A DNA stretch of 35,972 bases from Paracoccaceae bacterium (GTDB lineage: Bacteria; Pseudomonadota; Alphaproteobacteria; Rhodobacterales; Rhodobacteraceae), in the NCBI GenBank assembly GCA_014359745.1, contig JACIYW010000009.1, positions 1 to 35,972 on the forward strand, read 5' to 3'. The notes below the pieces were generated by a model. That model searched no databases. It was not told the DNA's origin and worked only from the letters and a program-made list of their open reading frames with translations. A program made the position numbers and the translations under genes. This document shows positions 2,083 to 19,586 of the stretch, in pieces; position 1 is the stretch's first letter; every line of letters starts with the position of its first letter.

Positions 2083-2084
2083 AC

Positions 2085-2103: not shown

Positions 2104-2131
2104 ATTCGTCGGTTTCGCGTAGCGATGCCGG

Positions 2132-2632: not shown

Positions 2633-2657
2633 GTTCACTGCCCCGAAAGTCTTGTTG

Positions 2658-2681
2658 TTTTCCTGATATCATACAGGAAAA
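2658..2681. repeat. Perfect 8-bp inverted repeat upstream of the L,D-transpeptidase
   Basis: TTTTCCTG (2658-2665) pairs with CAGGAAAA (2674-2681) around ATATCATA. It lies 26 bp upstream of the ATG at 2632, where an operator would be expected, and also just after the ion channel gene ends. A regulatory role is only a guess. Confidence 0.35.
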
Positions 2682-2727
2682 CCGCAGAAAGTGAATCCCA
2701 ACTTGCGGGGCAATTCTCAATTTTGGG

Positions 2728-3510: not shown

Positions 3511-3535
3511 GCCACGGCCCCCTGAAAATCCCCGC

Positions 3536-4783
3536 TCAGCTATCGGCCTTCGAGAAGGCTGCCGCAAGTTCGACATGCGCGGACCAGCGGAATTGGTCGA
3601 TCACCTGTACCCAGTCAAGCACATAGCCACCCTGGGTCAGAATCCTTGCGTCGCGGGCGAAGGTGACGGGGTTGCAGGAAACGGCGGCGATGCGGGGCAC
3701 GGCGCTTTGGGCCAGTTCGCGGCACTGTGCTTCGGCCCCGGCGCGCGGGGGGTCGATGACGACGGCGCCGTAATCAAGTTCGGCGGTCAGCAGCGGGCGG
3801 CGGAAGAGATCGCGCACCTCGGTGGTCAGGGGGCGCAGGCCGGTTGCCTGACGGGCGCCGGTGGCAAGGGCGGTAATCATCGCGGCGTCGCCTTCGACCG
3901 CGTGCACGCGCGCCTGCGTGGCAAGGGGCAGGGCAAAGGTGCCGCAGCCGCTGAACAGATCGGCGATGGTGGCGGGGGGGCCGATGGCGCTGGTGACGGC
4001 GCTGGTAACGGCGGCCAAAAGGGCGGCCTCGCCGTCGGCGGTGGCCTGAAGGAAGGCGCCGGGGGGCGGGGTGACGCGGGCGGGGCCGAAGGGGATCATC
4101 GGCGGGACGGATTGGGAGATCGTCTCTCCCGACCAGGAAAGCCGGGCGAGGCTCGCGCTTTCCACCAGGTGTGCCAGGGTCATCAGGCGGCTGGCCTCGG
4201 GGCTTGGCGCGCCGCTGATGTCAAGGTCAAGGCCGGTATCGGTAAGCGTCAGGGTGAAGGACAGCGTGGTGCTGCGCGAGGCGCAAAGCGCTGTGATCGC
4301 CTCAAGCAGGGGCAGGGCGGCCATCAGATCGGGATGCAGCAGCAGGCAGCCGGGGATTGCCACGATCGTATCCGAAGCGCGGGCATGAAAACCGACGAGC
4401 GCGCCCTTTTTGGTGCGCCGTCCGGCAAGGGTGGCGCGGCGGCGGGCGCGGGCGGGCGAAGTGTGGATCGGGCGAAAGCTGGTGTGCAGGCCCTGGGCGG
4501 CCAGGGCCATGCGCACCACATCGGCTTTCCACGCCGCCACGAAAGCGTCAGAGGCATGTTGCAGCGCGCAACCGCCGCAGGCCCTGGCATGGGGGCAGGG
4601 CGGGCGGATGCGGTAGGGCGCGGGCGTGAGGATTTTCGGCGCGGCGATCCGGCCGTCTGTCACGGTGCCCTCGACCACCTCGCCGGGCAGGGTGGCGGGG
4701 ATATGGACGGGGCCGGGCGCGACCCCATCGCCGCGGTGGTTGAGGCGGGTGATCGTGTGACGGGTGGGGTGATCGGGGGGCAT
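3536..4783 (-). CDS. Class I SAM-dependent RNA methyltransferase, RlmD/TrmA family
   Basis: The 415-residue protein has an N-terminal TRAM-like region and four cysteines placed as for a [4Fe-4S] cluster (C63, C69 and C72 in CPHARACGGC, and C146 in IPGC). A Rossmann SAM site follows (DLFSGCGTFALPL), then IDPPRAGA and the catalytic-Cys motif SCNPVTFARDA. The family makes 5-methyluridine in rRNA or tRNA; RlmD (23S U1939) and RlmC are the closest types, but the exact target cannot be decided from sequence alone. It lies just upstream of the sodium channel gene, probably in one transcript. Confidence 0.87.
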   Translation of the reverse strand: MPPDHPTRHTITRLNHRGDGVAPGPVHIPATLPGEVVEGTVTDGRIAAPKILTPAPYRIRPPCPHARACGGCALQHASDAFVAAWKADVVRMALAAQGLHTSFRPIHTSPARARRRATLAGRRTKKGALVGFHARASDTIVAIPGCLLLHPDLMAALPLLEAITALCASRSTTLSFTLTLTDTGLDLDISGAPSPEASRLMTLAHLVESASLARLSWSGETISQSVPPMIPFGPARVTPPPGAFLQATADGEAALLAAVTSAVTSAIGPPATIADLFSGCGTFALPLATQARVHAVEGDAAMITALATGARQATGLRPLTTEVRDLFRRPLLTAELDYGAVVIDPPRAGAEAQCRELAQSAVPRIAAVSCNPVTFARDARILTQGGYVLDWVQVIDQFRWSAHVELAAAFSKADS

Positions 4784-4811
4784 GGTTGCTTTGCAGGTTG
4801 GGGCGGGATTT

Positions 4812-4874
4812 GAGTATTTGGATCGAGAGGATGGGCGGGTGGCGGTGGAGTTTGAGTATTTTCACCAAGATGAA
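4812..4874. repeat. Two copies of a GAGTATTT extragenic motif
   Basis: TTGAGTATTTGGATCGAGAGG begins near 4810 and the related GAGTATTTTCACCAAGATGAA spans 4854-4874. Both lie in the 110-bp gap between the ABC exporter stop and the rlmD-like start. The second copy matches 10199-10220 and 18371-18392. It is a dispersed motif, not a gene. Confidence 0.6.
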
Positions 4875-4893
4875 ATGGCAGGTTTGTTCTTCG

Positions 4894-6726
4894 TTATTCC
4901 GCGGCGTCGGCCACGCCGATGAAGCCGCCCGACTGGCGGTTCCAGTAGCGGGCGTAAAGGCCATTCTGGGCGAGGAGTTCGTCGTGGCGCCCGGTTTCGA
5001 TGATGCGGCCGTGGTCCATGACGATGATCCGGTCCATGGCGGCGATGGTGGACAGGCGGTGGGCGATGGCGAGCACGGTCTTGCCCTGCATCACGCGGAT
5101 CAGCGCGGTCTGGATCGAGGCCTCGACCTCGGAATCGAGGGCGGATGTGGCCTCGTCCAGCACCAGGATGGGCGCGTCCTTGAGGAAGGCGCGGGCAAGC
5201 GCGATGCGCTGGCGCTGGCCGCCGGAAAGTTTCACGCCGCGTTCGCCAAGGTGGGCGTCATAGCCTGAACGGCCGAAGTGATCCTTCATGCCTTTGATGA
5301 AGCCGTGGGCCTCTGCCTGTCTGGCGGCGGCGATCACGTCGTCCATACTGGCGCCGGGCCGACCGTAAAGGATGTTGTCGCGGGCGGAGCGGTTGAACAG
5401 CGCGGTTTCCTGGGTGACGGTGGCGATCTGGCGGCGCAGGCTGGCCTGGGTTACGTCGCGCAGGTCGTGGCCGTCGATCAGGATGCGGCCCTGTTCGGGA
5501 TCGTAGAGGCGCAGCAACAGCGCGATCAGCGTCGATTTTCCCGCCCCCGAGGCGCCGACGATGCCGATCTTTTCCCCGGCGGGGATGGTCAGGCTGACGG
5601 CATCGATGCCGCCTTCGCGGCGCCCGTAGGCAAAGCTGACGGCTTTGAACGTGATGGTGCCGGTGGCCTTTGGCAGTGGCCGGGCATCGGGGCTGTCGGG
5701 CAGGCTGTGGGGCGGGGTGAGGGTGCGGATGCCATCTTCGATTTCGCCGACATTGGCGTAGATCGCCATCAGGACGAAGCTGACCCAGCCGGTCATCTGC
5801 GCGATGCGCAGCGCAATCGCGCCCGCCGCGGCGATATCGCCCGGCGATGCCGCGCCGCGTGTCCAGAGCACAAGCGTGCCGCCGACAAGCACGACGGGCA
5901 GGAGCCCCGCGAGCACCATCAGCGCCAGCCGGAACCAGGCAGACACCACGCCGAAATCCACCGTGCGGTCGCGGTAGGTCTGCATGGTGTCGAGGGCGGC
6001 GCCATCCTCGTGTTCGGCATTGGCGAAAAGTTTCACGGTCTTGATGTTGGTGATCGTGTCCACCACCTGCCCGGTCACCATCGCCCGCGCCCCGGCGCGC
6101 GCCATCGAGGTGCGGCGCACGCGGGGCAGGAAGGCCTTGATCAGCAGGAAATAGGCGGCCAGCCAGAAGGTCAGCGCGACCGCGATCCAGATGTTGATCG
6201 AGACAAGGAACAGCGCCGAACCGATCAGCGAGGCCAGCGAAAACGAGATGACGTTGACGCTTTCGCTGATCACGTCGGTGACGGCGCGCGCGGTTTGCAT
6301 CTGTTTTTGCGCGATGCGGCCGGCGAAATCATTGTCGAAGAACGTTACCGCCTGACCCAGCGTGAAACGGTGCAGGCGCGACAGCACCAGTGGCATCAGG
6401 TTGGGCGCGATGACGATCGAATTCATCGCCGCCATCGCCGATGACGCAATCGGGCGCAGCAGGATGAAGAACACCGCAAACCCGGCCAGAAGCAGCCAGT
6501 TCCGCGCAAAGAACACCGCCGGATCATGGGCAAGTGCGGTGTCGATCACATGGCCAAGCACCAGCGCGCTGAGCACCTCGAACACGCCCGCGATGGCCGA
6601 GACGCCGGAGGCCAGCAGCACGACGGGCCACGACCCTTCCAGCGCCCAACGCAGAAAGGCCCAGAGGCTGCGCGGTGGCGTGCCCTCGGCGGGGCGGAAC
6701 GGGTTTATGAGGCCTGCGATCTGCAT
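4894..6726 (-). CDS. ABC exporter, fused membrane and ATPase domains (MsbA/multidrug type)
   Basis: The 610-residue half-transporter has an N-terminal six-helix membrane domain (about residues 25-320) and a C-terminal ATPase. The ATPase shows Walker A GASGAGKST, signature LSGGQRQRIALARA, Walker B ILVLDEATSALD and the H-loop in AIAHRLST. It would work as a homodimer in the inner membrane; the substrate is unknown. The start is placed at ATG 6726 (MQIAGLINPFRP). The longer frame back to 6873 would run into the end of cca and adds a sequence with no family resemblance. Confidence 0.88.
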   Translation of the reverse strand: MQIAGLINPFRPAEGTPPRSLWAFLRWALEGSWPVVLLASGVSAIAGVFEVLSALVLGHVIDTALAHDPAVFFARNWLLLAGFAVFFILLRPIASSAMAAMNSIVIAPNLMPLVLSRLHRFTLGQAVTFFDNDFAGRIAQKQMQTARAVTDVISESVNVISFSLASLIGSALFLVSINIWIAVALTFWLAAYFLLIKAFLPRVRRTSMARAGARAMVTGQVVDTITNIKTVKLFANAEHEDGAALDTMQTYRDRTVDFGVVSAWFRLALMVLAGLLPVVLVGGTLVLWTRGAASPGDIAAAGAIALRIAQMTGWVSFVLMAIYANVGEIEDGIRTLTPPHSLPDSPDARPLPKATGTITFKAVSFAYGRREGGIDAVSLTIPAGEKIGIVGASGAGKSTLIALLLRLYDPEQGRILIDGHDLRDVTQASLRRQIATVTQETALFNRSARDNILYGRPGASMDDVIAAARQAEAHGFIKGMKDHFGRSGYDAHLGERGVKLSGGQRQRIALARAFLKDAPILVLDEATSALDSEVEASIQTALIRVMQGKTVLAIAHRLSTIAAMDRIIVMDHGRIIETGRHDELLAQNGLYARYWNRQSGGFIGVADAAE

Positions 6727-6814
6727 AGGTGATCCGTCTGGGAAGGGGCATATGCCCGCGATATAGGGTGCCCGCCGGTCAAGGGAAACCGGCGCGCCGA
6801 TCTGTGCCGGTCCG

Positions 6815-7957
6815 TCAGGCCAGCAGATCGTCCCGGCCAAGGGTAAAGCCAGAGGCGATCCAGCGATCTTCAAGGGCGGTCAGCCGCGCGCCAAGGGCCG
6901 CGCCCTGAACCCCCGGCATCAGATCGGCGGCGCTGACGGGAAAGGTGGCGGAGGCGCCGCGCGCGATGTCTGCCTGCCAGTTGGGGGGCGGCGGGCTTTG
7001 CATCAGGGCGGCGCGCACCAGCACGATATCGGTGGCCGTCGCCTGCCCGTGGCGATAGCCAAGTTCGGCCGCGGCGCACGGGCTTTCGGCGCCGCTGCGG
7101 ATCAGATCAAGGTGGCGCGCATCGGCTTTTGACAGGCGCAGCGCCTGCCCGACATCCGCGCCGCCCAACGAGGCCAGGCGGCGGCGCCAGTCGGGGGCAA
7201 GGCCGCCCTCAAGATGCACCAGAACCGGCAGCGCGCCGGCCTCGGCCCCCGGCAAGACCTGCGCAAGAACACCCGCCGCCTGCATCGAGGCAACAGCGGG
7301 GGCGGGATCGGGCGCGGCCAGCAGCTTGCGCATCTCGGCCCCGATGCGTTCGCGCGACAGGCGGGGCAGGCCCCCGGCGTGGGCGGCGCAGGCGGCCAGA
7401 CCTTCGGCATCAAGCCCGCGCGCGGGGTCGCCATACCAGGCGTGAAACCGGAAAAACCGCAGGATGCGCAGGTAATCCTCGCGGATGCGGGCATTGGCAT
7501 CGCCGACAAAGCGCACGCGCCGGTTTTCCAGATCGGGCAGGCCGCCAAGCGGGTCGATCACCGTGCCGTCGGCCTGGGCATAAAGCGCGTTCATGGTGAA
7601 ATCGCGGCGCGCGGCATCCTCGGCCAGGTCATCCGACCAGGCGACGGTGGCGTGGCGGCCGTGAGTTTTCACATCGCGGCGCAGGGTTGTCACCTCATGC
7701 GGCAGGCCGCCCGCGATCACGGTGATGGTGCCGTGATCGATGCCGGTCGGCACCGGCCGCAGGCCCGCCGCCTGCGCCAGATCCATCACCCGTTCGGGGC
7801 GCGCATCGGTGGCAATGTCGATATCCGCGACCGGCATTCCCAAAAGCGCGTTGCGCACGCAGCCCCCGACCAGCAGCGCCAGATGCCCCGCATCGGTCAG
7901 CATGGCGCAGACCGCCTGTGTTTCGTCGCGGGTCAGCCAGGGGCCGCTGACCTTCAT
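6815..7957 (-). CDS. cca: CCA tRNA nucleotidyltransferase
   Basis: The 380-residue class II enzyme adds or repairs the 3' CCA end of tRNAs. The nucleotidyltransferase core is clear: VGGCVRNALLG, then DIDIAT with the metal-binding aspartates, RRDFTMNALY, and RILRFFRFHAWYG at the start of the neck domain. The C-terminal part is the shorter alphaproteobacterial form. Its ATG overlaps the Nudix stop by ATGA (7954-7957), indicating translational coupling with the upstream Nudix gene. Confidence 0.93.
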   Translation of the reverse strand: MKVSGPWLTRDETQAVCAMLTDAGHLALLVGGCVRNALLGMPVADIDIATDARPERVMDLAQAAGLRPVPTGIDHGTITVIAGGLPHEVTTLRRDVKTHGRHATVAWSDDLAEDAARRDFTMNALYAQADGTVIDPLGGLPDLENRRVRFVGDANARIREDYLRILRFFRFHAWYGDPARGLDAEGLAACAAHAGGLPRLSRERIGAEMRKLLAAPDPAPAVASMQAAGVLAQVLPGAEAGALPVLVHLEGGLAPDWRRRLASLGGADVGQALRLSKADARHLDLIRSGAESPCAAAELGYRHGQATATDIVLVRAALMQSPPPPNWQADIARGASATFPVSAADLMPGVQGAALGARLTALEDRWIASGFTLGRDDLLA

Positions 7958-8556
7958 GGCGCCAGCCGGTCGGCCAGGGCGCGCAGGATCCGCGCGGTGG
8001 CGCCCCAGATGTAATAGGGGCCATAGGGCACGGTGAAATAGTTGCGTTGCTGCCCCATCCAGATCCGCGATTGCACGCGGTAGCGTGTGGGATCGCAGAG
8101 ATGGGCAAGGGGGACGGTGAACACCTCATCCACCTCGCCCGCTTCGGGGCGCGGATCGAACGCGGCCAGCACCCGGCCCAGAACCGGGGTGATGCAATAC
8201 CCGGTGCCGGTTTCATGGGTGGGCAGTTGGCCCAGAACCATCACATTGGCGGGGTCGAGGCCGATTTCCTCATGGGATTCGCGCAGCGCGGCGGCGGCGG
8301 TGCTGGCGTCGGTCGGGTCAACCTTGCCGCCGGGAAAGGCGATCTGTCCGGGGTGGTGGCGCAGCCGCGATGACCGCTTGGTCAGGATGACGCCGATCCC
8401 CGACGGCCCGGCCAGAAGCGGCACCAGAACGGCGGCCTGGCGCAGGGTGCGGCCTGCAGGCGGGGGGGTGGCCTTGTTCAGGTCGAAATCGGACGAGGGC
8501 GCGCCGGGGCGTGCCAGCGCGCGCAGGATGGGGGCGAGGGGATCGTCGTCAGTCAT
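7954..8556 (-). CDS. CoA pyrophosphatase-type Nudix hydrolase
   Basis: The 200-residue protein has the Nudix box in its CoA-diphosphatase form (FPGGKVDPTDASTAAAALRE, then SHEEIGL). It is preceded by LTKRSSRLRHHPGQIAFPGG, the segment that marks CoA/acyl-CoA pyrophosphatases (NudL/YeaB type). The start at ATG 8556 (MTDDDPLAP) avoids the upstream GMPPGMPPGM run, which comes from a 12-bp tandem repeat inside hslO. It overlaps hslO by 8 bp and cca by 4 bp, so the three genes form one tight unit. Confidence 0.88.
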   Translation of the reverse strand: MTDDDPLAPILRALARPGAPSSDFDLNKATPPPAGRTLRQAAVLVPLLAGPSGIGVILTKRSSRLRHHPGQIAFPGGKVDPTDASTAAAALRESHEEIGLDPANVMVLGQLPTHETGTGYCITPVLGRVLAAFDPRPEAGEVDEVFTVPLAHLCDPTRYRVQSRIWMGQQRNYFTVPYGPYYIWGATARILRALADRLAP

Positions 8557-9592
8557 TCCCGGTGGCATCCCCGGTGGCATCCCCGGAGTTTGGCCCAGAA
8601 TCGGGGCCAGAGCCATCCGTAGCGGTCAGCGCGGCGGGATCCAGTTCGTAATGCGCGTTGCAGAACTGGCAATCGGCGGTGATCAGCCCGTCATCGGTGA
8701 TCATTTCGGCGATGTCTTCGGGGCTGAAGGCCGACAGGCTTTCATGCACCCGCTCAACCGAACAGGTGCAGCCGAATTGCACCACCTGCGCGTCAAAGAC
8801 GCGGGGGATTTCTTCGTGGAAGAGGCGCACCAAAAGGTCGGTGGGTTGCACCCGCGGGCCGGTCAGTTCGATATCCTCGACCGTATCAAGCAGAATATTG
8901 ACGCGGTTCCAGTTTTCGGCGTCATCGCCGTGGACGATATCTTGCGGGGCCAGCAGGCCGCCCGCGCCCGATCCGCCGCCCTGCGCATGCGGAGAGCTTT
9001 TGGGCATGTGTTGCAGCATCATGCCGCCCGCGCGCCAGTGTTCGGCCTCGGTCTGGGTGGTGCTGCGGCCAAGGCCAAGGGCAAAGCGGGTGGGCAATTG
9101 TTCGGATTGCGCGAAATAGGTTTCGGCACAATCGGCCAGCCTTGTTCCCGACAGCGGGGTGATGCCCTGATAGGGCGTCATGTCGGGGCCCTGATCGATG
9201 ATGATCGCGAAATACCCTTGCCCCAACAGGGCGAAGGGATCCGTTTCGGCCCTGATGCCGGGGGCGTCGGCGTCAAATGCGGCATAGGCGCGGATGCGGG
9301 CGGGCGCGCCTTCGGCCTCGGGGCCGTAATAATCGGTTGCGATCATGCGGACCGGCCCGTCGCCGCGTATCTGAAGCGAGAGTTTCCAGCGCAGCTTGAC
9401 AGTCTGGCCGATCAGCGCGGTCAGCACCACGGCCTCTGCCACCAGCGCCTCGACGGCGGGCGGATAGGCGTGCTGGCCCAGAATACGGTTGAGCAGCCCG
9501 TCAAGCCGGGTCACCCGGCCCCGGATATCGGCGCGGTCAAGCTGAAAGGGCAGGACGGTATCGTCCCAGGCGATTTTCGATCCAAGGGTCAT
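8549..9592 (-). CDS. hslO: Hsp33 redox-regulated chaperone
   Basis: The 347-residue cytoplasmic chaperone is activated by oxidation of a C-terminal zinc site. The four zinc cysteines are present: CTCSVERVHESL and, about 30 residues on, CQFC. The N-terminal region (LDRADIRGRVTRLDG) and the central GPVRMIATDYYGPEAEG segment match the family. The tail is extended by about 25 Gly/Asp/Ser-rich residues (SGPDSGPNSGDATGDATGND) partly encoded by a 12-bp duplication. It is divergent from the plus-strand Nudix gene, with 69 bp between the starts. Confidence 0.92.
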   Translation of the reverse strand: MTLGSKIAWDDTVLPFQLDRADIRGRVTRLDGLLNRILGQHAYPPAVEALVAEAVVLTALIGQTVKLRWKLSLQIRGDGPVRMIATDYYGPEAEGAPARIRAYAAFDADAPGIRAETDPFALLGQGYFAIIIDQGPDMTPYQGITPLSGTRLADCAETYFAQSEQLPTRFALGLGRSTTQTEAEHWRAGGMMLQHMPKSSPHAQGGGSGAGGLLAPQDIVHGDDAENWNRVNILLDTVEDIELTGPRVQPTDLLVRLFHEEIPRVFDAQVVQFGCTCSVERVHESLSAFSPEDIAEMITDDGLITADCQFCNAHYELDPAALTATDGSGPDSGPNSGDATGDATGND

Positions 9593-9661
9593 GGGCTGGT
9601 CCTGCGGTGCGATCCCGTTCTATCGTGCCCGCGCGGCAACGGCAACCACGGGAGCAGAGCC

Positions 9662-10129
9662 ATGACCAGACGTTTCGGCCAGCCCCCCGAGGCGGGGCGC
9701 GTGTATCGCAGGCGGCCGGGGGCCTATGCGGTGCTGATCCGGGGGGGGCGGGTGCTGCTGACCCATCAGCAGGCACCCGAACCCGAATTCCAGTTGCCCG
9801 GCGGCGGGATCGATCCGGGTGAACATCCGCTGCACGCGCTGCGCCGCGAGGTGGGTGAGGAAACCGGCTGGTCGATCGCGGGGGTCCGGCGGATCGGGGC
9901 CTTTCGCCGCTTTGCCTATATGCCGGAGTATGATCTTTGGGCGGAAAAGCTGTGCATCATTTACACCGCCCGCCCCGCGCGCCGCCTTGGCCCGCCGACC
10001 GAGGCCGGGCACAGCGCGCATTGGGTGGGGTTTGGCGCGGCCCCCGCGCTGGTGGGCAATCCGGGGGATGCGCATTTTCTGGCGGGGGTTCTGGCGCGGG
10101 CGGTTCGGGTGCTGGCCGGTCAAAGATAG
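9662..10129 (+). CDS. Nudix hydrolase
   Basis: This is a 155-residue protein with a canonical Nudix box: GGGIDPGEHPLHALRREVGEETG, i.e. Gly, five residues, Glu, then REVGEE. Such enzymes cleave nucleoside diphosphate-X compounds; the substrate cannot be read from sequence. The start is fixed by GGGAG eight bases upstream of ATG 9662. The same frame stays open far upstream, but only as the complement of hslO. It is the last intact gene before the nos scar. Confidence 0.85.
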   Translation: MTRRFGQPPEAGRVYRRRPGAYAVLIRGGRVLLTHQQAPEPEFQLPGGGIDPGEHPLHALRREVGEETGWSIAGVRRIGAFRRFAYMPEYDLWAEKLCIIYTARPARRLGPPTEAGHSAHWVGFGAAPALVGNPGDAHFLAGVLARAVRVLAGQR

Positions 10130-10198
10130 CTGCCTGCAACGGATTTCAGCCCGTCGGCTTCAGTCCCTTGACCGGCGCGCGTGGCGTGCGCGGGAGAT

Positions 10199-10246
10199 GC
10201 GTATTTGGGCCAAGATGAAGCGAGATGAAGCGAGATGAAGCGAGAC
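10199..10246. repeat. GAGTATTT-type motif running into a 10-bp tandem repeat
   Basis: GCGTATTTGGGCCAAGATGAAG (10199-10220) is a copy of the dispersed motif also found at 4854 and 18371. Its tail is expanded into about three copies of CGAGATGAAG (10211-10246). It lies 70 bp downstream of the Nudix stop. Confidence 0.6.
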
Positions 10247-10257
10247 AAGCCGATGCT

Positions 10258-10288
10258 ACCCCAAAACCCGAAATTTCGGTAGTGGGGT
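10258..10288. repeat. Hairpin around CCGAAATTTCGG
   Basis: The 12-bp perfect palindrome CCGAAATTTCGG (10268-10279) sits inside an outer ACCCC/GGGGT pairing (10258-10262 with 10284-10288). It could end transcription from the Nudix gene or mark the edge of the IS630 remnant; there is no T-tract. Confidence 0.4.
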
Positions 10289-10332
10289 GTGACGCGGAAG
10301 TTGTCTGATACCTAGCTTTGGAAGGTTTTCCA

Positions 10333-10550
10333 CTAATTCTGGATGGTTTCCCGAAAGAACTTCAGGATCGCAGTCGCGACCTGTTTCCGGGTGGGGTAAT
10401 GGCGATTATGGGTCACGTGCTGGTGCATGACCGCCGATAATCGTTCGCTGGGGTTGAGGTGAAGGCAACAGGGCGGCAACTGGATCAGGTGGAAATGGCA
10501 ATCGGGAGGTGCCGGGAAGGCCCCCGATCCCGTCACCATACCGGCGCGGT
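10333..10550 (-). pseudogene. IS630-type transposase, C-terminal fragment
   Basis: About 70 residues read on the minus strand match the end of IS630-family DDE transposases: a degenerate HRAG segment, then LIQLPPCCLHLNPSERL (family consensus LPPYxPxLNPxExxW), then HVTHNRHYP and a final helix before the stop. The glutamate of LNPSE is the last catalytic acidic residue. The N-terminal catalytic parts and any clear terminal repeat on the nosL side are missing. Homology stops at about 10540-10550, where nosL homology begins on the other strand, so this is one side of a breakpoint. Confidence 0.75.
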
Positions 10551-10968
10551 GCTGGATCATTTCTGTATGATGCAGTTTGACCAACACCCCGGCCCCATGG
10601 CGCAAATTCATCTCTCCGGTCGGCCCGATCCGATCTTTTTCACCCAAGTGCGCGACGCGCTGACTTATGTCAAAGACCCCGAGCGTGACGCCGATATCCT
10701 TGCCTTCTACGTCGGCGACATGGGCGCGGCGACAAGCTGGGAGGTGCCGGGCATGGACAACTGGGCCCGTGCTGATACTGCGTATTTCGTCACCGGTGCC
10801 GATGTCACCGGCGGTATGGGCGCGCCCGGGATCGTGCCCTTCGCCAGCGCCGATGCCGCCCGCGATTTCGCCATCCGCAAGGGCGGACAGGTGATGATGC
10901 TTTCTGACACCCCGACCAAGACCGTTCTGACCCCGGTCGAGGTCGCGCTTGAGGAAAAGCCGTCATGA
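10540..10968 (+). pseudogene. nosL: NosL copper chaperone, 5'-truncated
   Basis: From about 10540 the plus strand encodes the NosL core. It begins at VLDHFCMMQFDQHPGP with the metal-binding Cys/Met region and continues through AQIHLSGRPDPIFFTQVRDAL, YVGDMGAATSWEVPG and GGMGAPGIVPFASADAA. NosL delivers copper to N2O reductase at the outer surface of the cell membrane and is normally a lipoprotein. Here the signal peptide, lipobox Cys and early N-terminal part are gone, replaced by IS630-derived sequence. An in-frame ATG at 10459 could give a chimeric protein, but it would lack an export signal. The stop overlaps the nosX ATG by 4 bp. Confidence 0.8.
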
Positions 10969-11852
10969 CCCCGACACGCCGCCGCTTCCTGACCTTCACG
11001 GCCGCCGCATTGGCCGTGCCATCCGCAGCCGCCGCCGGTGACACCGCCCGCTGGGCCGGTTTCGCCCTCGGCGCGCGCGCCAGCATGACCCTGGCCGGGA
11101 TCACCCCGCTTCAAGCCCGACCCGTCTTTGCCCGGCTCGAGGCCGAGATCGCCCGGCTTGAGCGGATTTTCAGCCTCTACCGCAATGACAGCGCGCTGGT
11201 CCGGCTCAACCGCACCGGCAGGTTGCGGGCCCCGCCGCACGAGTTGCTGGAGGTGCTGACGCTGGCCGGTGCCTTGCACGATGTTTCCGGCGGGGCGTTC
11301 GATCCCACCGTGCAACCGCTCTGGCAGGCGCTTGCCACCGGCGGTGACGCCGTGACGGCCCGCGCGACGCTCGGCTGGGACGGGGTGCGGTTCGATGTGG
11401 ACGAGGCGCGCCTTCTGCGCCCCGGCATGGCGCTCACGCTTAACGGGATCGCGCAGGGCTATATCACCGACCGGATCGCGGCGCTGCTGCGCGGGCAGGG
11501 GCTGCGCGATGTGCTGGTCGATATCGGCGAGGTCGTGGCCCTTGGCCGCAAACCCGACGGCAGGCCATGGCAGGCCGGTATCGCCACGCCCGCGCGCGCG
11601 CTTGTCCACCGCGTGGCGCTAAGCGACCGGGCGCTTGCAACTTCGGCCCCGATGGGCACGATGCTGGCTGCCGGACAGGGCCATATCCTTGATCCGCAGG
11701 GCCATGGCCCGCGCCATGAACTGGTTTGCGTTTCGGCCCCCCGTGCGGCGCTGGCCGATGGCCTGTCGACCGCGCTTTGCCTGCTCGATGGCAGGGCAGG
11801 ACAATCGACCATAGCCCATTTCGACGGGGCCGCCGTCGAATACATCACATGA
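10965..11852 (+). CDS. nosX: NosX, ApbE-family FAD:protein FMN transferase
   Basis: The 295-residue protein starts with a Tat signal (TPTRRRFLTFTAAALAVPSAAAA) and has the ApbE fold: RLEAEIARLERIFSLYRNDSALVRLN, GAFDPTVQPLW, LNGIAQGYITDRIA, LVDIGEV and GHILDPQ. ApbE proteins attach FMN to a Thr of periplasmic domains. NosX does this for NosR in the N2O reductase system, and in Paracoccus the related NirX, encoded beside NirI, can replace it. It follows nosL with an ATGA overlap and appears complete, although the rest of the nos operon is absent. Its own promoter is not obvious. Confidence 0.88.
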   Translation: MTPTRRRFLTFTAAALAVPSAAAAGDTARWAGFALGARASMTLAGITPLQARPVFARLEAEIARLERIFSLYRNDSALVRLNRTGRLRAPPHELLEVLTLAGALHDVSGGAFDPTVQPLWQALATGGDAVTARATLGWDGVRFDVDEARLLRPGMALTLNGIAQGYITDRIAALLRGQGLRDVLVDIGEVVALGRKPDGRPWQAGIATPARALVHRVALSDRALATSAPMGTMLAAGQGHILDPQGHGPRHELVCVSAPRAALADGLSTALCLLDGRAGQSTIAHFDGAAVEYIT

Positions 11853-11883
11853 CCCCTTCAACCAACCAAGAGGAGACGACCAG

Positions 11884-12264
11884 ATGTTCACCAGGCTGAT
11901 CACTGCCGGGGCACTCACGCTCAGCCTCGCCGCTTCGGCCCTCGCCGAGGGCGACACGGCAGCGGGCGAAAAGGTATTCAACAAATGCAAGGCCTGTCAC
12001 ATGGTAGGCGAGGATGCCCAAAACCGCGTTGGCCCCGTGCTCAACGGCATTGTCGATCGGCCGGTCGCGGCGGGCGAGGGGTTCAAATATTCCGACGTGT
12101 TCCAGGAAAAAGCCGCCGAAGGCGCGGTCTGGAGCGAAGAGGAGCTTGCCGCCTTCCTCGCAAGCCCGCGCAAATATGCCAAGGGCACCAAGATGGCCTT
12201 TCCCGGTCTGCGCAAAGACGCCGAGATCGCCGCCGTGATCGCCTATCTGGCGACGTTCAAGTAA
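11884..12264 (+). CDS. Periplasmic class I cytochrome c (c2/c550 type)
   Basis: The 126-residue protein has a signal peptide (cleavage near SALAEG), a heme-binding CKACH (C35, C38, H39) and a probable axial Met104 in KGTKMAFPG, with the c2-type body VGPVLNGIVDRPVAAGEGFKYSD. It is probably a soluble electron donor to NirS or NorCB, or a link to the cytochrome bc1 complex; the partner is inferred from position. An AGGAG ribosome site precedes ATG 11884, 31 bp after nosX, so the two may be co-transcribed. It converges on the nir operon. Confidence 0.88.
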   Translation: MFTRLITAGALTLSLAASALAEGDTAAGEKVFNKCKACHMVGEDAQNRVGPVLNGIVDRPVAAGEGFKYSDVFQEKAAEGAVWSEEELAAFLASPRKYAKGTKMAFPGLRKDAEIAAVIAYLATFK

Positions 12265-12316
12265 CCCGCGCGCTGCCGCGATCAGGGTCGCCCAGCCACG
12301 CGCCGGGCGGCCCACC

Positions 12317-12550
12317 TCATTTGCGTCCCTCGGCCTCGTCGATCAGGCCCTTGATCCACAGCGTCACCCACCAGTTGACTGGCATGCCGAGCGGCAGGCA
12401 GAGCCAGAGCGCTGCGACCGGCGAGAGGGCGGGCCAGCCTACCACCTGCCACAGCAACGCCAGCATGAAGAGATTGATCGCCACGGCCAGCGCGGTGAAC
12501 GGGTAGAGAGCCAGGTAAAGCCGCAGGGGCGGGCGCTTGATCGGGGGCAT
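12317..12550 (-). CDS. Small membrane protein at the end of the nir operon
   Basis: The 77-residue protein has two hydrophobic helices (LALYPFTALAVAINLFMLALL and PVAALWLCLPLGMPVNWWVTLW) and a short charged tail. It starts at ATG 12550, 7 bp after the nirN stop, so it is part of the nir transcript. I cannot assign a function. Short membrane proteins of about this size, sometimes called NnrT, are associated with nir/nor loci in Rhodobacter relatives, and this may be one, but that match is from memory and untested. Confidence 0.65.
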   Translation of the reverse strand: MPPIKRPPLRLYLALYPFTALAVAINLFMLALLWQVVGWPALSPVAALWLCLPLGMPVNWWVTLWIKGLIDEAEGRK

Positions 12551-12557
12551 GGGCGGG

Positions 12558-14105
12558 TTAGTGGCTGGTGCCTTCGGAGAAGGTGATCTTGTTGAAGACA
12601 TTGTATTTCCCCGAGGGTTTGCGCATCGGCAGGCGGGTGACCTCTTCCAGCGTCTTGGCATTGTAGACGATCACCGCGCCGTCGTCTTCCCAGACCGAGA
12701 CCAGCGCATGACTGCCGTCGCGGGTAAATTCCACATGCGCCACCGTGGCGCCGGGCACCGGGCGCAGGGTGCGCACAATCTCAAGGCTTTGCTTGTTGAT
12801 CACATGCATCGCGTCGCGATTGGGGCCAAAGAATACGTCGGCCCAGAAATAGGGCGTGTTCTCGTGGCTGCGCAGGAAGAACCCCGGCCCGTCGGTCTTG
12901 ATGGTGTCGGTCACGGTCCAGCTTTCGGTGTCGATGATCGAGAGCATCCCCTCTTTCAGGTGCGGCGTGGCCATCACCCGGCGGCCGTTCCGTTCCCATG
13001 AAATGCCCGATCCCAGATGCGGCATTCCGGGCAGGGGCAGTTCGGCGATCTCGCGGCCGACGTTGAGGTTGACCACCACGCCCCGCCCGCTATCGCGCGC
13101 GGCACCGATCAAGGCGCGGTAATCATCGGTGAAGAAAAAATCGTCGAGCGGCTCGGACAGCATGATCCGCCGCCGGGCGAACAATCCTTGCGAGGACGGG
13201 ATAGCCTCGATCATGCCCTTTTCGCGGCTATGGACAAATCCCTCATAAACGGGCGCGGCGGTTGGGTCGGTCGCCACCTCCCAGATTTCCGCCACATCCT
13301 TCAATGCCAGGATGAAACTGTCGCGCTGCGGCGCCTGATAGACCGCCGAGACGCGGCTTGCCGTGCCGTCCTTGCCCGCGACCGGCATGACGATCTTTAC
13401 GCTCAGGTCGTCGGTGTCGAGGATCGTCAGCGTCATCGGCAGGTAATTGGCCACCGCCAGCCACTTGCCATCGGTGCTCATCGCGATGTTGCGGCTGTTG
13501 AGGCCGGCGCGCACCCGGCCCACCTGATGCAGCGACCAGATATCGTATTTCTGCACCCAGCCATCGCGCGACATGATGAAGACATAGCGCCCGTCGGGGC
13601 TGAACTTCGGGCCGCCATGCACGGCAAAGGGGGTGGTGAACCGGTCGAGCACCTTGAACGTGTCGCCGTCGAGCACACTGACATGATGATCGCCGGTTTC
13701 CACCACCAGCGTGATGTTAAGCGGGTCGGCGTCGAAGACGGGGGTGTTGGCGGGCGTGTAGTCGGGATCGCGCCAGCGCGTTCCGGCAATCTGCGTAGGC
13801 CCCCAATCCGGCACATGACCCAGCGGCGTTTTCAGCCACTCGGCCAGGGCTGCGATCTCTGTCTCGCTCAAGTTGTCGCCATAGCCGGGCATCTGCGTGG
13901 CGGCGCGGCCGTGCGCGATCACCTCGGCCACCTTCGGCCCGCGCATCCGGCTGAGCGTTTCAGGGATCAGCGCCGGGCCCTCTCCGCCCAGCCGGTCGGC
14001 CCCGTGGCAGGCGGCGCAATCACGCGCGTAAACCTGCGCCGGGTCCGCCATCGCCGGGCCTGTGAGGAGCGCCAGCGCGCTAATAAAACCGATGGATCGG
14101 ATCAT
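12558..14105 (-). CDS. nirN: NirN, heme d1 biosynthesis dehydrogenase (c-heme plus d1 domain)
   Basis: The 515-residue protein has a signal peptide (cleavage near PAMADP), an N-terminal cytochrome c domain with CAACH (C30, C33, H34) and [12 protein letters not shown], and a C-terminal eight-bladed propeller of the NirS/NirF type. NirN oxidises dihydro-heme d1 to heme d1 in the periplasm, the last step of cofactor synthesis. Its position after nirJ and the separate, clear nirS at 19627-21384 distinguish it from NirS. ATG 14105 overlaps the nirJ 3' end by 26 bp. Confidence 0.87.
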
Positions 14106-15294
14106 GTTTCTTGCCTCTGAACGGGGTGACGGCCAGACGGTCGCCGGTGTTGGACACGCCGATTTCGGCGTCATCCAGGTAACAGGCGGGATCCTCTGCC
14201 CAGGGGTCGCCGGTCAGTTGCAGCGCGCGGATGCGGGTATTGCCGCCGCAGACCGATTGATAGGCGCATTGCCCGCAACGCCCTTTCAGGGGGCGCGGGC
14301 GTTGTCGCAACTGCGTCAACATCGGGTCATCGCCGGTCCACAACTCGGAAAACTTCGTGGTTTTCACATTGCCCACCGTGTAATCCGACCAGTAGGTGTC
14401 GGGGTGCACCCGCCCCAGCGTGTCGATATTGGCCACGCCCAGGCCGGAGGAATTGCCGCCCCAGGCCTCCAGATGATCGCGCAGATGCGCCACGCGGGCA
14501 GGCTCGAAATGCCGCTCGGCCCAGCGCAGCATATAGACCGCATCGGCATCGTTGTTGCCGGTGACCAGATCCAGCGGCGCGCCCTCTGCCGCCGCCACCC
14601 AGGCGCGGTCGATCATCATATCAAGCGCGCGGCGCGTGTGATCGTGCTGCGCATCCTCGCCCCGGTTCTTATCGCCGCGCCCGGCATAGACAAGGTGGCT
14701 GAGGTAAAACTTGTCCACCCCCTCGTTATCGCAAAGTTTCAGCAAATCAGGTAGTTGCGCTTCGTTGTCGCGCGTGAGCGTGAACCGCAGCCCCACCTTG
14801 ATGCCGCGCGCCTTGCACGCGCGCACCCCGCGCAATGCGTCGTCAAACGCCCCGTCCACGCCGCGAAACCAGTCATTCGTCTTGCCGATCCCGTCGATGG
14901 AAATGCCGACATAGTCGAACCCGATTTCGGCCACGCGATCCGCAGTCTCGCCATGTACCTTGGTGCCGTTGGTCGACAGCGCCAGCATCCGCACCCGCTT
15001 GCGCGCCTCTGCCGCGATCTCGAACAGGTCGCGCCGGTCCAGCGGCTCGCCCCCCGACAGGATCAGCGCCGGAATGCCGAAGTCGCCCAGATCGTCGAGC
15101 GTTGCCATCGCCTGTTCGTGGCTCAGTTCACCCGGAAAATCCACATTCGCCGAGACCGTGTAGCAGTGGCGGCATTTCAGGTTGCAGCGCCGGGTGAGGT
15201 TCCAGATCACCACCGGCTTGACCGGCCCTGCGCCCCTGCGGCGCAGCGGGGTGGGGTTGACCAGTTGGTGCATGTATTCGGTCAGGCGAAACAT
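14080..15294 (-). CDS. nirJ: NirJ, radical SAM heme d1 synthase
   Basis: This is a 404-residue radical SAM protein with C37, C41 and C44 in [25 protein letters not shown], and a C-terminal cysteine-rich region ([13 protein letters not shown] and later ACYLDD) for an additional Fe-S cluster. NirJ replaces the two propionate chains of 12,18-didecarboxysiroheme by oxo groups. ATG 15294 begins 1 bp after the nirH stop; the longer frame back to 15378 is just nirH read in another frame. Confidence 0.93.
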
Positions 15295-15295
15295 C

Positions 15296-15784
15296 TCAGC
15301 CCTCCTTCGGGCGCAGCCGCAGCCCTGTTTTCTTGAGAATGCGCGTCGAATAGAGGATGTCACCGGCGCGGCACGCATCGCCCAGCAATTCGGCGATCTG
15401 TGCGCGCTTTTCCTCGACCTCGTCGCGGCTTTGCCCGTGGATCATGGCAAAGATGTTATAGGGCCAGTCGGGCAGGGCGCGCGGCCGCTCGTAGCAATGG
15501 CTGACATAATCGAGCGCTCCCACGCGCGCGCCCAACTCCGCCACCGCCCCATCCTCCACATCCCAGACCGACATGCCATTGGCGACCATGCCAAGCGCAT
15601 AGTGATTTGGGGCCACCGCCACGCGGCGGATGACCCCGCGTTCCTGCATCGCGCGCAGCCGGGCACAAAGCGTGGCCTCGTCCAGCCCCAACTTTTCGGC
15701 CACCATTGCGTAGGGCTGCGGCACAAGGGCCAATCCGCCCTGCGTGGCGGCGATGATGCGGCGGTCCGTGGCGTCGATGTTCAT
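15296..15784 (-). CDS. nirH: NirH, siroheme decarboxylase subunit (Lrp/AsnC-like)
   Basis: The 162-residue protein has an N-terminal winged-helix resembling Lrp/AsnC ([17 protein letters not shown]) and the marker segment [22 protein letters not shown], typical of NirH/NirL and AhbB proteins. With NirDL and NirG it decarboxylates siroheme to 12,18-didecarboxysiroheme; despite the fold it is an enzyme subunit, not a regulator. The ATG overlaps the nirG stop (ATGA, 15781-15784). NirH is assigned by order and by the WPYN motif. Confidence 0.85.
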
Positions 15785-16230
15785 GCGGCGACCCTGAACC
15801 CGATAAAGAACTCCGTCAGCTTCGGGAAACAGAGCACGCGCAGCCCTGTTTCCTGTTCAAGGGACGTGGTCACCGCCTCGATCTCGGCTGCCGTTTCCGT
15901 AGCCAGAACGAACCACATGTTCAGACGATGACTGCGCTCATAATTATGCGCCACCTCTGGCCGGGCATTGACTTTGGTCACGACGGTCTCGAAATCCGCC
16001 TCAGGCACCGCCATGGCACAAAGGCAAAACGCGCCCCCCATCGCCTCGGCGTCATAAAAGGGGCCAAAGCGGGTGATGATCCGCGCGGCCTTCATCCGCC
16101 CCAGCCGCGCCAGCAGGTCGTCTTCGGTCAATCCCAATTCCTGGGCCACCTTCAGGAACGGGTCGGGGCAGATAGGAAAGCCGTCTTGCAAGCGATTCAG
16201 GATCAGCCGGTCCGTGGCGTCAAGTTTCAT
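15781..16230 (-). CDS. nirG: NirG, siroheme decarboxylase subunit (Lrp/AsnC-like)
   Basis: The 149-residue paralogue of NirH and the NirDL domains has the same N-terminal LDATDRLILNRLQDGFPI helix pair and the NYERSHRLNMWFVLATE motif of NirD/NirG/AhbA subunits. It works with the neighbouring Nir proteins in siroheme decarboxylation. ATG 16230 is preceded by GGAGAAC and overlaps the nirDL stop (ATGA, 16227-16230); a longer frame to 16278 would only extend into nirDL. Confidence 0.85.
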   Translation of the reverse strand: MKLDATDRLILNRLQDGFPICPDPFLKVAQELGLTEDDLLARLGRMKAARIITRFGPFYDAEAMGGAFCLCAMAVPEADFETVVTKVNARPEVAHNYERSHRLNMWFVLATETAAEIEAVTTSLEQETGLRVLCFPKLTEFFIGFRVAA

Positions 16231-17216
16231 GCCGTTCTCCTTTCGCGCGCCACCAGTGCGCCGGTCTGCTTGAAACAATGGCTGGAAAACAGCGCCAGAT
16301 GCGGCACGCCCTGCAATTCCGGGCGCGCCGCCGCCGCGTCGAGATGCGCCAGCGCCTCGGCCCGGCTGCGGGCGTGGATCATGGAATAGAGGCGGTAGGG
16401 CCAGCCCCCCGCGACCGGCCTGCGCTCATAGCACAGCGTCACGCCCGGTTGTGCCGCCAGCATCGGCCCGGCCCTGTCGATCGCTTCGGAGGGCAGATCC
16501 CAGACCACCATCGCGTTCGACCGCCAGCCCAGCGCCCGGTGCCGCACGATCACGCCAAGGCGCGAAATGATCCGCGCGTCCACCAACACCCTGATCCGCG
16601 CGATCACCGCATCCATATCCAGCCCGAGAGACGCGCCGATATCGGCATAGGGGCGCTCGACCAGGGGCAGGCCGCGCATCAGCGCCTGCACGATCTCGCG
16701 GTCGCCGGGGCGCAGCATGGTGATATCCGGCGGCAGCGAAACGGGCCGTACCCTTGTGTCGCCGCGCAGCGAGAACCCCAGATCGAGATTGAAGGGTCGC
16801 ACCAGCGGTAGATCCATCACCCGCAGCCCGCTGCGCCGCCCGATCCGCGACAGCGCGGCCGATATATGCGCCCGGTCCGGCCCGGTGGCGACGAACCACA
16901 GGTTCCAGGCATTTTCGCGCAGGTAGGAATGGTTGACCCCCGGCTCGGCCCCGATGATCTCCGCCACCTCCTCGACCCGCGCCTCGGGCGCGGCCACGGC
17001 GGCGAGCGTACTGGCGGCGATGGTCCCCGGTGCGACCGTGGCCCCCACCCGGGTGATCTGCCCCGCCGCCTGCCTGGCGCGAAGCCGCGCGATCACATCC
17101 GCCTCCGACGTGCCCAGCTCTTGGGCCAGCGCGGCAAATGGCCGCGCCGCGACCGGGAAATCCCGCTGCCAGTCATCGAGCAGCGCGCGGTCAACGGGAT
17201 CGGAAAACCGGTGCAT
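16227..17216 (-). CDS. nirD: NirDL fusion, siroheme decarboxylase
   Basis: The 329-residue protein is made of two Lrp/AsnC-like halves. Residues 1 to about 155 are NirD-like (HSYLRENAWNLWFVATG), and about 165 to 329 are NirL-like (REIVQALMRGLPLVERPYA, then CYERRPVAGGWPYRLYSMIHA). Paracoccus also has the fused NirDL form, whereas Pseudomonas has separate genes. It acts in removal of the C12 and C18 acetate carboxylates of siroheme. It starts 3 bp after the nirF stop and overlaps nirG. Confidence 0.88.
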   Translation of the reverse strand: MHRFSDPVDRALLDDWQRDFPVAARPFAALAQELGTSEADVIARLRARQAAGQITRVGATVAPGTIAASTLAAVAAPEARVEEVAEIIGAEPGVNHSYLRENAWNLWFVATGPDRAHISAALSRIGRRSGLRVMDLPLVRPFNLDLGFSLRGDTRVRPVSLPPDITMLRPGDREIVQALMRGLPLVERPYADIGASLGLDMDAVIARIRVLVDARIISRLGVIVRHRALGWRSNAMVVWDLPSEAIDRAGPMLAAQPGVTLCYERRPVAGGWPYRLYSMIHARSRAEALAHLDAAAARPELQGVPHLALFSSHCFKQTGALVARERRTA

Positions 17217-17219
17217 CTC

Positions 17220-18488
17220 TTACAGCCCCGTCTTGTGCGCGCGCGCGGTGAAAAAGATACCCGAGGGGCTTTCGGCCGCGATCTCGCTCAGCTTCTCGAA
17301 GGTTTCGGTGTCATAGACCATGACGCGACCGACATCGCGCACCGACACCCACACCTCGCGCCCGCGCGGGGTGAATTCCATGTGCAGCACGCCGGGGCCG
17401 GGTTTGAATTCATGGATGATCTGCTTGGTCAACGTGTCGATCACCTGGATGGTGTCATTGAGTGGATGGGCGAAATTGACCCAGACCTGACGGCCATCGG
17501 GCCGCGACATGGCGAAAACCGGCTGACCATGGGTGGGCGTTCGCCCGGTTTCGTCCAACGTGCGCGCATCGACCCAGAGCACCTCGTGCTGGCCCATGGC
17601 GGGCAGCACGAAATCCGTGCCCGCCAGCGCCCAGCCCTCCAGATGCGGCATCTTGTAGACTGGCAAGCCCTCGCGCCCCTCGGCATAGCCGGGCAGAATG
17701 GTGCGCGGCGCGGGGCTTTCCTGCCAAAGATCGAGCGCCGTGAGGTGATCCTCGCCAAATAGCCCGACAATATAGGTGCGCCCATCGCCGGTCACCAGCG
17801 CGTCATAGGGGTTCTTGCCCATGCCGGTGATCTTGGTGATTTGCGGGGGGACATCGGAAAGATCGGCGATCCAGGTCTCGCCCGCGTCCCACAGCGAAAA
17901 CACAAAGCGCGTGCCGGGAATATCCACCAGCCCGATGGTCTTGGACCCTGTAGGAATGTCGGCCACCATCTCCAGCGTGCCCGCATCAAACACCCGCACG
18001 CCGCCCGGATCGTAATTCGACACGGCCACATAGCGGCCGTCGTCGGAAATCGCCCCGCCAATGGAATTGCCTGCCTGCATGACCCGTTTGACCACGCGCC
18101 GTTCCAGGATATCGACCTTGGTCAACCCGCCATCGCGACCAAAGACATAGGCAAAGCGTTCATCCGGCGAATAGACGAGACTGGCATGGGACAGATCGCC
18201 CAGCCCCTCGATCCGCCCCAGTGACGCGCGCTCGGACTGGTCGACGACCAGAAGCGAGCCGGTTGCGCGCTCCACCACCAGCCCCAGGTCGCCGGTAGCT
18301 TGCGCCTGCGCGCCAGTGGCCATCGCCCCGCAGATAACGACCGCCGCCGCTGTCAGCAGCTTTCGGACCTGAGTATTTTTGCCAAAAAGAAGCCAGGACC
18401 ATGTTTCTTCTGGCCCTAAATATCCCAGGGAAGTCGCCCGCAGGGCGGTGGGGGCAGCGCCCCCGAACAGGCGTCGGGTCAGGCTCAT
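17220..18488 (-). CDS. nirF: NirF, heme d1 biosynthesis propeller protein, with repeat-encoded N-terminal extension
   Basis: From about residue 64 on, the protein is a typical NirF: an eight-bladed d1-binding propeller without a cytochrome c domain (GDLGLVVERATGSLLVVDQS, FGRDGGLTKVDILERR, YVAVSNYDPGGV, PLNDTIQVIDTLTKQI). NirF takes part in late heme d1 synthesis in the periplasm. The only ATG ahead of the signal peptide is at 18488, overlapping the nirC stop as ATGA. The signal-like stretch (VRKLLTAAAVVICGAMATGAQAQA) comes about 40 residues later. The intervening residues are encoded by a palindromic dispersed repeat (18366-18470), so either the protein has an unusual N-terminus or translation begins at a non-standard codon near 18365. 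Confidence 0.88.
   Translation of the reverse strand: MSLTRRLFGGAAPTALRATSLGYLGPEETWSWLLFGKNTQVRKLLTAAAVVICGAMATGAQAQATGDLGLVVERATGSLLVVDQSERASLGRIEGLGDLSHASLVYSPDERFAYVFGRDGGLTKVDILERRVVKRVMQAGNSIGGAISDDGRYVAVSNYDPGGVRVFDAGTLEMVADIPTGSKTIGLVDIPGTRFVFSLWDAGETWIADLSDVPPQITKITGMGKNPYDALVTGDGRTYIVGLFGEDHLTALDLWQESPAPRTILPGYAEGREGLPVYKMPHLEGWALAGTDFVLPAMGQHEVLWVDARTLDETGRTPTHGQPVFAMSRPDGRQVWVNFAHPLNDTIQVIDTLTKQIIHEFKPGPGVLHMEFTPRGREVWVSVRDVGRVMVYDTETFEKLSEIAAESPSGIFFTARAHKTGL
18366..18470. repeat. Palindromic dispersed repeat inside the 5' end of nirF
   Basis: GAGTATTTTTGCCAAAAAGAAG (18371-18392) and an inverted relative (18403-18425; minus strand GGATATTTAGGGCCAGAAGAA) form imperfect arms around CAGGACCAT. 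Next come two GC hairpins: CGCCC/GGGCG (18435-18447) and GGGGGC/GCCCCC (18450-18464). Single copies of the first arm occur at 4854 and 10199. The element is typical of intergenic sequence but stays open in the nirF frame. Confidence 0.65.
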
Positions 18489-18784
18489 TCGCTTTCTCCG
18501 TTCAGCAGGTAATCGGCAATCCACGCAGCCTCCGCCTCGGTCAGAAGCGGCCGCCAGGGGGGCATCGGCGTGCCCGGCACACCGTCAAGGATCACCGCTT
18601 TCAGCCCCTCGGCCTCGTAATGTGTCAGCGCCTGCGCGCGAATGTCCGGCCCCAGCCCGCCCTTGAGCGTCAGCCCGTGGCACGATCCGCAATCCTGCCG
18701 CACCAGCCGCTCCAGCGCGCGGGCGTCCGGTTCGGCCAGGGCAGGGGCGGCGACCAGCGCCAGTATCAGCGCCGCCTTATTCAC
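18485..18784 (-). CDS. nirC: NirC, small periplasmic cytochrome c55x
   Basis: The 99-residue protein has a signal peptide (cleavage near APALAEP), one heme site CGSCH (C32, C35, H36) and TPMPPW supplying the probable axial Met. NirC is a monoheme cytochrome of nir operons, proposed to pass electrons to NirS or to heme d1 assembly. It starts with GTG at 18784, inside the last codons of nirE (8-bp overlap), and its stop overlaps the nirF ATG. Confidence 0.88.
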   Translation of the reverse strand: MNKAALILALVAAPALAEPDARALERLVRQDCGSCHGLTLKGGLGPDIRAQALTHYEAEGLKAVILDGVPGTPMPPWRPLLTEAEAAWIADYLLNGESE

Positions 18785-19544: not shown

Positions 19545-19586
19545 TGTCAGGGCTCCTCGGCTGGGTCTTGAACCTGGCTGGAAAGG

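Follow-up and report, generated by a model that had tools for sequence, protein, structure and literature searches.

Organisation of the locus

The window, by which is meant the whole stretch of 35,972 nucleotides analysed here, belongs to a draft genome of a Paracoccaceae bacterium (G000; 262 contigs, 2.93 Mb, completeness 100, contamination 1.95%). It joins a group of core genes, through a repeat and the remnant of an insertion sequence, to a truncated nosL, an open nosX and the genes of nitrite and nitric oxide reduction. The features are as follows.

769-10127, strand not assigned: left flank with CCA, NUDIX, Hsp33 and a second NUDIX gene, conserved in relatives
10140-10243, plus strand: truncated dispersed intergenic repeat, then three GATGAAGCGA units (20 copies aligned, including that of the window)
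10250-10501, minus strand: IS630-family remnant (transposase 3' end and right end of the element), from a profile match and DNA identity
10502-10509, no strand: junction of the IS630 remnant and nosL, between the end of IS homology and the start of nosL DNA homology
10510-10968, plus strand: nosL remnant, from PF05573 and a DNA alignment with eight relatives
10965-11852, plus strand: nosX, open, starting MTPTRRRFL (ApbE, PF02424, E 1.1e-47)
11884-12264, plus strand: c-type cytochrome, c550/CycA-like (PF00034, E 6.5e-9)
12317-12661, minus strand: small conserved gene between nirN and the cytochrome, in the same place in many relatives
12558-21384, minus strand: nirN, nirJ, nir D/L/G/H-type genes, nirF, nirE and nirS, named by reading the open reading frames
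21467-23539, plus strand: nirI (NosR-like; named by reading and place), with DIISRAT at about residues 165-171
23655-28965, plus strand: norC, norB, norQ, norD and norE, named by reading
29922-30638, minus strand: Crp/Fnr-type regulator, named by reading

The genes of the left flank were named by reading, except Hsp33, which matches PF01430 (E 4.5e-67). Comparison of the left-flank reading frames with the Hsp33 regions of six relatives by tblastn gave 48-73% amino acid identity and a largely collinear order, with fewer matches in L204. Hsp33 is present in six of the seven relatives searched, all of them draft genomes (the exception is G394), and in all six it lies on a different contig from nosZ. 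As the left flank of the window was seen beside nos in none of the relatives searched for Hsp33, a simple local deletion is not demonstrated. The Hsp33-NUDIX block is followed in all six by genes for a response regulator and an Hpt protein. The corresponding genes of the own genome were considered as the reciprocal junction and rejected: they adjoin a DnaK-like gene on C208, nothing there matches the IS stretch, and they have no bearing on how the junction arose. A match of 49 bases to the nos stretch of L075 (E 8e-4) was taken as chance.

The repeat at 10140-10243 accounts for at least 39 of the 43 matches in the own-genome search (40 of 199 candidates scored). Many of its copies extend from CCTTGACCGGCGCGCGC, by way of GAGTATTTGGGCCAAGATGAAG, to an end resembling CGGTCAAGG, and the copy in the window is cut on the right, its terminal units preceding the IS remnant. 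Neither a convincing conserved fold among the 20 aligned copies nor a plasmid match was found for it.

Downstream of nosX, the cytochrome occupies the same position in L075, L077 and L128 and scores 93.6 bits on NF043008, under the cut-off of 240. The small gene at 12317-12661 has no family match in NCBIfam at 1e-5 or in Pfam at 1e-3. The nir block is collinear with L075 (82-88% amino acid identity) and L079 (82-89%), the nor genes are collinear with the genomes of the same two organisms, G394 and G398, at 76-97% (NorB 97% to G394), and the Crp/Fnr regulator, 90% identical to G394 and 83% to G398, is the last gene common to the relatives in the stretches compared. No Rfam family was detected in the window at gathering thresholds. 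A scan of 9600-12600 returned no sigma-70-like promoter, such scans missing many, and four terminator-like sites against 2.3 expected; it thus gives no sign that nosX is expressed.

The junction and the condition of nosL and nosX

The minus strand encodes the C-terminus of an IS630 transposase, and only positions 249-297 of the 299 in NF033545 are represented in the window (E 8.2e-6; 25.5 bits against a cut-off of 100), so that no complete transposase is present. Homology at the DNA level extends over 10256-10501, with 72% identity (179 of 247 columns) to an IS630 element on a Loktanella salsilacus plasmid (L074), and 10250-10395 is 87% identical to C197:16001-16144 of the own genome, where transposase remains adjoin the copy. 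The junction range widens to 10502-10522 if a nine-base match at 10510 is due to chance. It falls inside the transposase gene, at about residue 273 of the Loktanella protein, and not at the end of the element, a position that neither transposition nor a simple deletion next to the IS would produce.

The sequence-only reading of this DNA had placed the beginning of NosL at about 10540, exactly where IS630 homology stops. The abutment is real, but the IS homology ends at 10501 and that of nosL starts at about 10510-10523, position 10540 being the place of a one-base frame change. Pfam NosL matches the reading frame 10459-10968 over profile positions 10-129 of 131 (E 6.3e-37; 127.3 bits against a cut-off of 24). 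In the DNA alignment with eight relatives, TGCCGGGAA at 10510-10518 is aligned with the lipobox Cys-Arg-Glu codons of L128, about 11 bases being missing behind it, and 10523-10539 is aligned with the PDPVTM codons of the relatives in another frame, one base being missing after 10539. The frame 10459-10968 stays open because the losses of about 11 bases and of 1 base, together 12, cancel. Reading of the sequence before 10510 revealed no start codon, hydrophobic stretch or signal peptide, and of a lipoprotein signal peptide with its lipobox Cys only a possible Cys codon is left; the loss of the signal noted earlier is thus borne out. NosL is known as a lipoprotein copper chaperone for NosZ. In the window it is further altered by K to M and E to G changes at residues identical in all 74 other NosL. 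At 36 conserved columns the window shows 2 deviations, against a mean of 0.42 in the others; L115 and L066 show 4 each and four other rows 2, so that a relic is not alone in having lost two such residues.

Rates of change were compared with those of L075 using four outgroups. Unique amino acid changes in nosL number 16-19 in the window and 3-9 in L075, while third-position changes are alike (14-20 and 13-19). The binomial p values for the excess are 0.011, 0.027, 0.0009 and 0.17 in tests that are not independent, and with outgroup L079 the excess is non-significant (17 against 9, p 0.17). No consistent excess of amino acid changes was found for nirN and nirJ in a comparable test. The sequence of nosL therefore carries signs of decay, and its pairwise dN/dS, still low at 0.156/0.58, suggests that the decay is recent or partial.

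The nosX gene stands apart in this respect. It was described as intact, and it is indeed open, scores 163.3 bits on the ApbE profile (cut-off 25.6) and shows 0 deviations at the 50 columns that are at least 95% conserved in other NosX, so that both the domain and the conserved residues of a NosX/ApbE flavin transferase are present. Its first residues, MTPTRRRFL, form a Tat-type motif. Unique changes number 16-20 in the window and 10-12 in L075 (binomial p 0.18-0.44), and dN and dS relative to L075 are 0.103 and 0.45, respectively. Few or no signs of decay are apparent in the sequence of nosX.

The shared island and the second nos operon

Eighty loci, the best 80 of 582 by NosX alignment, were named and compared. 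In nine of these (L075, L077, L079, L081, L085, L086, L115, L128 and L141) nosRZDFYLX lies upstream of nirN and converges with it, an arrangement also seen in L067. L075 is Roseovarius sp. SP300 (G394), the closest by NosX among the best 80 of 582, and L079 is Paracoccus salsus (G398). From nosL to the Crp/Fnr gene the window is collinear with both (75-97% amino acid identity to G394 and 65-94% to G398), with two exceptions: the search did not recover the whole cytochrome in L079, and G398 gave no match to the gene at 29365. In both genomes nosRZDFY sits upstream of nosL, and the window matches their nos-nir regions only from nosL onward. In the collinear relatives L075, L077, L079, L081 and L128, nosRZDFY and the 5' end of nosL are present, and these are missing in the window. 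This agrees with the earlier statement that nothing of nosRZDFY precedes nosL here, as does the only nosZ match of the assembly, which is on C19. In L075, L077 and L128, nosRZDFYLX lies upstream of a cytochrome gene in the same place. To the left of nosR, the only item common to G394 and G398 is a partial neighbour match that ends just before nosR.

The identity of P. salsus proteins to those of the window is 82-94% in the island, except for NorC (76), NosL (70) and NosX (65), as against 59% for Hsp33 and 60% for CCA in the left flank. Over 10505-30640, the nos-nir-nor-Crp/Fnr island is far more similar to Roseovarius and P. salsus than the neighbouring core genes are. An island identity well above that of core genes points to horizontal sharing between genera, and these sequence comparisons suggest that Roseovarius-like and Paracoccus bacteria share the denitrification island by horizontal transfer.

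A search of the own genome found one nosZ, two nosL and two ApbE matches. The sole nosZ lies on contig C19, which carries nosR, Z, D, F, Y and L. C19 ends 17 bases past the nosL stop, its end has 15 bases in common with the start of contig C184, and nosX continues there in frame. C19 and C184 together hold a complete nos operon with nosR, Z, D, F, Y, L and X open and adjacent, the join depending on the 15-base overlap and the common reading frame only. The C19 proteins score 1145.8 bits on TIGR04244 for NosZ (cut-off 625), 463.7 on TIGR04247 for NosD (cut-off 300) and 780 on NF046105 for NosR (under the cut-off of 1000). NosF matches general ABC models, all under their cut-offs among the 25 of 184 matches listed; NosY and NosL have no NCBIfam match at 1e-5, and NosL passes the Pfam cut-off. 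The idea that the nos genes of the window had moved rather than been deleted was discarded, since with one nosZ and two nosL there is no second nosZ to account for. One nosZ was likewise found in each of the 14 relatives searched (that of G402 in two pieces), and none has two complete nosZ, as expected if two nos operons per cell do not last.

A concatenated NosRZDFY tree of 71 rows (FastTree, midpoint root) places C19 in a 20-row clade (support 100) with L189 and L190, apart from the six-row group of L075 (100). The NosZ of C19 (L002:3656-5599) stands at about the same distance from its own clade (82%) and from the L075 group (82.5%; 82-83%), and NosD, NosF and NosY are clearly nearer to their own clade; from these identities it is possible that the C19 operon is a mosaic.

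Origin of the truncated locus

The sequence-only reading had gone on to propose an organism that stops at N2O. The genome search for nosZ and nosR, named beforehand as the check that could overturn this, found the complete nosRZDFYL of C19 running into the nosX of C184, which leaves the statement without basis unless these two contigs are contaminants. The organism probably still converts N2O to N2, as judged from its gene content. The window is, with good confidence, the broken left edge of a shared denitrification island of the order nosRZDFYLX-cytochrome-nir-nirI-nor-Crp/Fnr, from which a redundant nos operon was lost while nosX stayed open. The locus would most likely be an unremarkable sort of relic, namely the margin of a redundant nos operon. 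By this account, nosRZDFY and the 5' end of nosL would have been lost; the cut end now meets an IS630 remnant, with an unrelated core locus next to it. The complete nosRZDFYLX of another lineage elsewhere in the genome would let the cell still reduce N2O and may have made the loss tolerable. Being the gene nearest to nir, nosX may stay open for flavinylating NirI or for helping the other NosR. All these results derive from one draft assembly, without reads across the junction.

The manner of the loss admits a variant, to which somewhat less than an even chance is assigned, in which the island arrived already cut at nosL through partial transfer or recombination. It agrees with the position of nosR, apart from the partial neighbour match, as the leftmost common gene in the G394 and G398 stretches, which makes nos the edge of the island, and with the different divergence of island and core. 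However, no donor of a truncated island is present among the best 80 of 582 loci, L076 being cut elsewhere in nosL, and the excess changes in nosL fit a decay in this lineage after the split from L075. As the island and the left flank diverge differently from the relatives, partial transfer and later deletion are indistinguishable.

That the IS630-nosL join is a chimera of the assembly is improbable. The unequal divergence of the island and left flank, in a single draft assembly, could be so explained, but the own-genome search (40 of 199 candidates scored) found no second identical copy of the IS stretch, the best being 87%, and nosL at the join has small deletions and has lost conserved residues, which is what a genuine relic would show. 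A slightly smaller probability attaches to the nosRZDFYLX of C19 and C184 having come from another, misbinned organism, the true genome being without nosZ. The number of contigs and the estimated contamination allow for this, and only the assembly or bin links C19 and C184 with C252. The tetranucleotide profile of C19, on the other hand, is like that of the own stretches, with correlations of 0.972-0.978 to five of them outside the island and 0.945 to L075 and L079; these own stretches correlate among themselves at 0.967-0.988. The island itself reaches 0.968-0.981, which makes this a weak test.

An IS-mediated deletion that took the only nosRZDFY and left denitrification ending at N2O is very unlikely. 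The missing genes are confirmed by the collinear relatives and an IS630 remnant does lie at the junction, but a junction within the transposase gene does not bear out the part ascribed to the insertion sequence, and the end point fails on the operon of C19 and C184. It is just as unlikely that the fused frame 10459-10968, open into the NosL core through its two cancelling deletions, encodes a functional cytosolic NosL-like protein, given the lack of a signal peptide by reading, the two changed invariant residues and the excess amino acid change.

A NosX tree of 95 rows, made by a quick method with SH-aLRT support only, has the window as sister to L075 (99) and the truncated L076 as sister to L077 (99). 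Both partners have complete nos operons, and two independent losses are the best reading of this pattern. L076, a Roseovarius MAG, retains about 48 nosL codons before a nosX that reads without interruption as far as the contig reaches (286 of 295 residues); on a different contig the genome carries a nosRZDFYL of the other nos lineage together with part of a nosX. In L091, a Rhodobacteraceae MAG, debris of nosR, nosZ, nosF and nosL is packed into about 1.1 kb (8856-10001) before an open nosX, and no nos genes are visible in L096 (98), its sister row. A nosX that has outlasted its operon is also seen in these two other lineages, L076 and L091. L110 (Roseovarius FR_34) has a frame-broken nosX without nosL at 9900-10880 and a nos operon of the other nos lineage in its genome (L190), of which nosR and nosZ are also in two frames; the frame breaks of L110 and L190 are possibly sequencing indels. 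The available excerpts of the literature on nosX with nirX, insertion sequences and pseudogenes contain no report of a nosX outlasting its operon.

Retention of nosX and comparison with known systems

NosX/ApbE proteins are proposed in PMC7660919 to attach FMN to NosR. The NirI of the window retains a DIISRAT motif; D[VI]ISRAT occurs in 14 of the 21 rows that match this NirI at 46% or more (of the seven misses, three fall short of the place and four reach it), and DIISGAT or DIVSGAT in 47 of 54 NosR rows. The window NirI scores 633.9 bits on NF046105, under the cut-off of 1000. The FMN_bind domain (PF04205) is detected in the NosR of C19 (E 3e-5) and not in the window NirI at E 0.001, which argues against a simple equivalence of NirI and NosR. 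One ApbE match each was found in G394 (its nosX), G400 and G401, and two, four and two, respectively, in the other island carriers G396, G398 and G399, fragments included. A single ApbE in a genome would serve both NosR and NirI if NirI is flavinylated, and perhaps the nosX of the window is kept to flavinylate NirI.

It is tentatively suggested that the nirX of alphaproteobacterial nir clusters is a nosX left behind by repeated loss of nir-linked nosRZDFYLX in lineages that held or gained another nos operon, the window being such a conversion with part of nosL still attached. In the NosX tree, nirI- or nor-linked nosX form two separate groups among nosX, one of 14 rows (100) and one of three Aurantimonas rows (100), the latter nested in a six-row group (98) in which the remaining three rows carry complete operons. 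The order nirI-nosRZDFYLX-cytochrome-nor in L094, L095 and L116 and the order nirI-nosX-nor in, for example, L113, L122 and L123 fit an internal deletion. The nosX genes of L076 and L091, with a nosL tail or nos debris in front, also support the idea. Against it, no nosL match at E 0.01 lies upstream of nosX in the 17 nirI- or nor-linked loci inspected. A 93-residue NosY match within nirI of L135 (E 0.005) was taken as chance.

Work by Saunders in 2000 is said to be in line with a redundancy of nosX and nirX. In PMC3541799, single mutants of nirX and nosX behave as wild type and only the double mutant fails, whereas PMC7660919 states that nosX is not replaced by nirX. A nosX spared beside nir genes makes this dispute testable by evolution besides mutants, and the sparing of nosX next to nir is the part worth following. 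As a cut nos operon can be a dispensable copy, an N2O-emitting phenotype should not be predicted from one locus.

A study on Castellaniella (PMC11046850) describes four strains that lost nos, with N2O demonstrated as the end product of one of them, and also two genomes that each carry a pair of nos operons. As in the window, mobile DNA, there a genomic island, lies where nos was; unlike the genome of the window, which retains a second nos operon, those strains are without nos. The IS630 element of the Loktanella plasmid is similar to the remnant in the DNA of its tail, and only about 250 bases of the 3' end of such an element are retained in the window. The clade I nosRZDFYLX clusters of the Paracoccus denitrificans type have in common with the window the nosL-nosX order and the NosL and ApbE-type NosX families; in contrast to them, the window is devoid of nosRZDFY, its nosL lacks a start and signal, and only nosX is open and conserved. 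The window has the layout of the NirX type, an ApbE gene beside nir genes without nosRZDFY. As in the case of Paracoccus denitrificans nirX, a nosX homologue is placed in a nir cluster that holds nirI, but in the window it stands at the end of the nir genes opposite nirI, with the nosL remnant in front of it.
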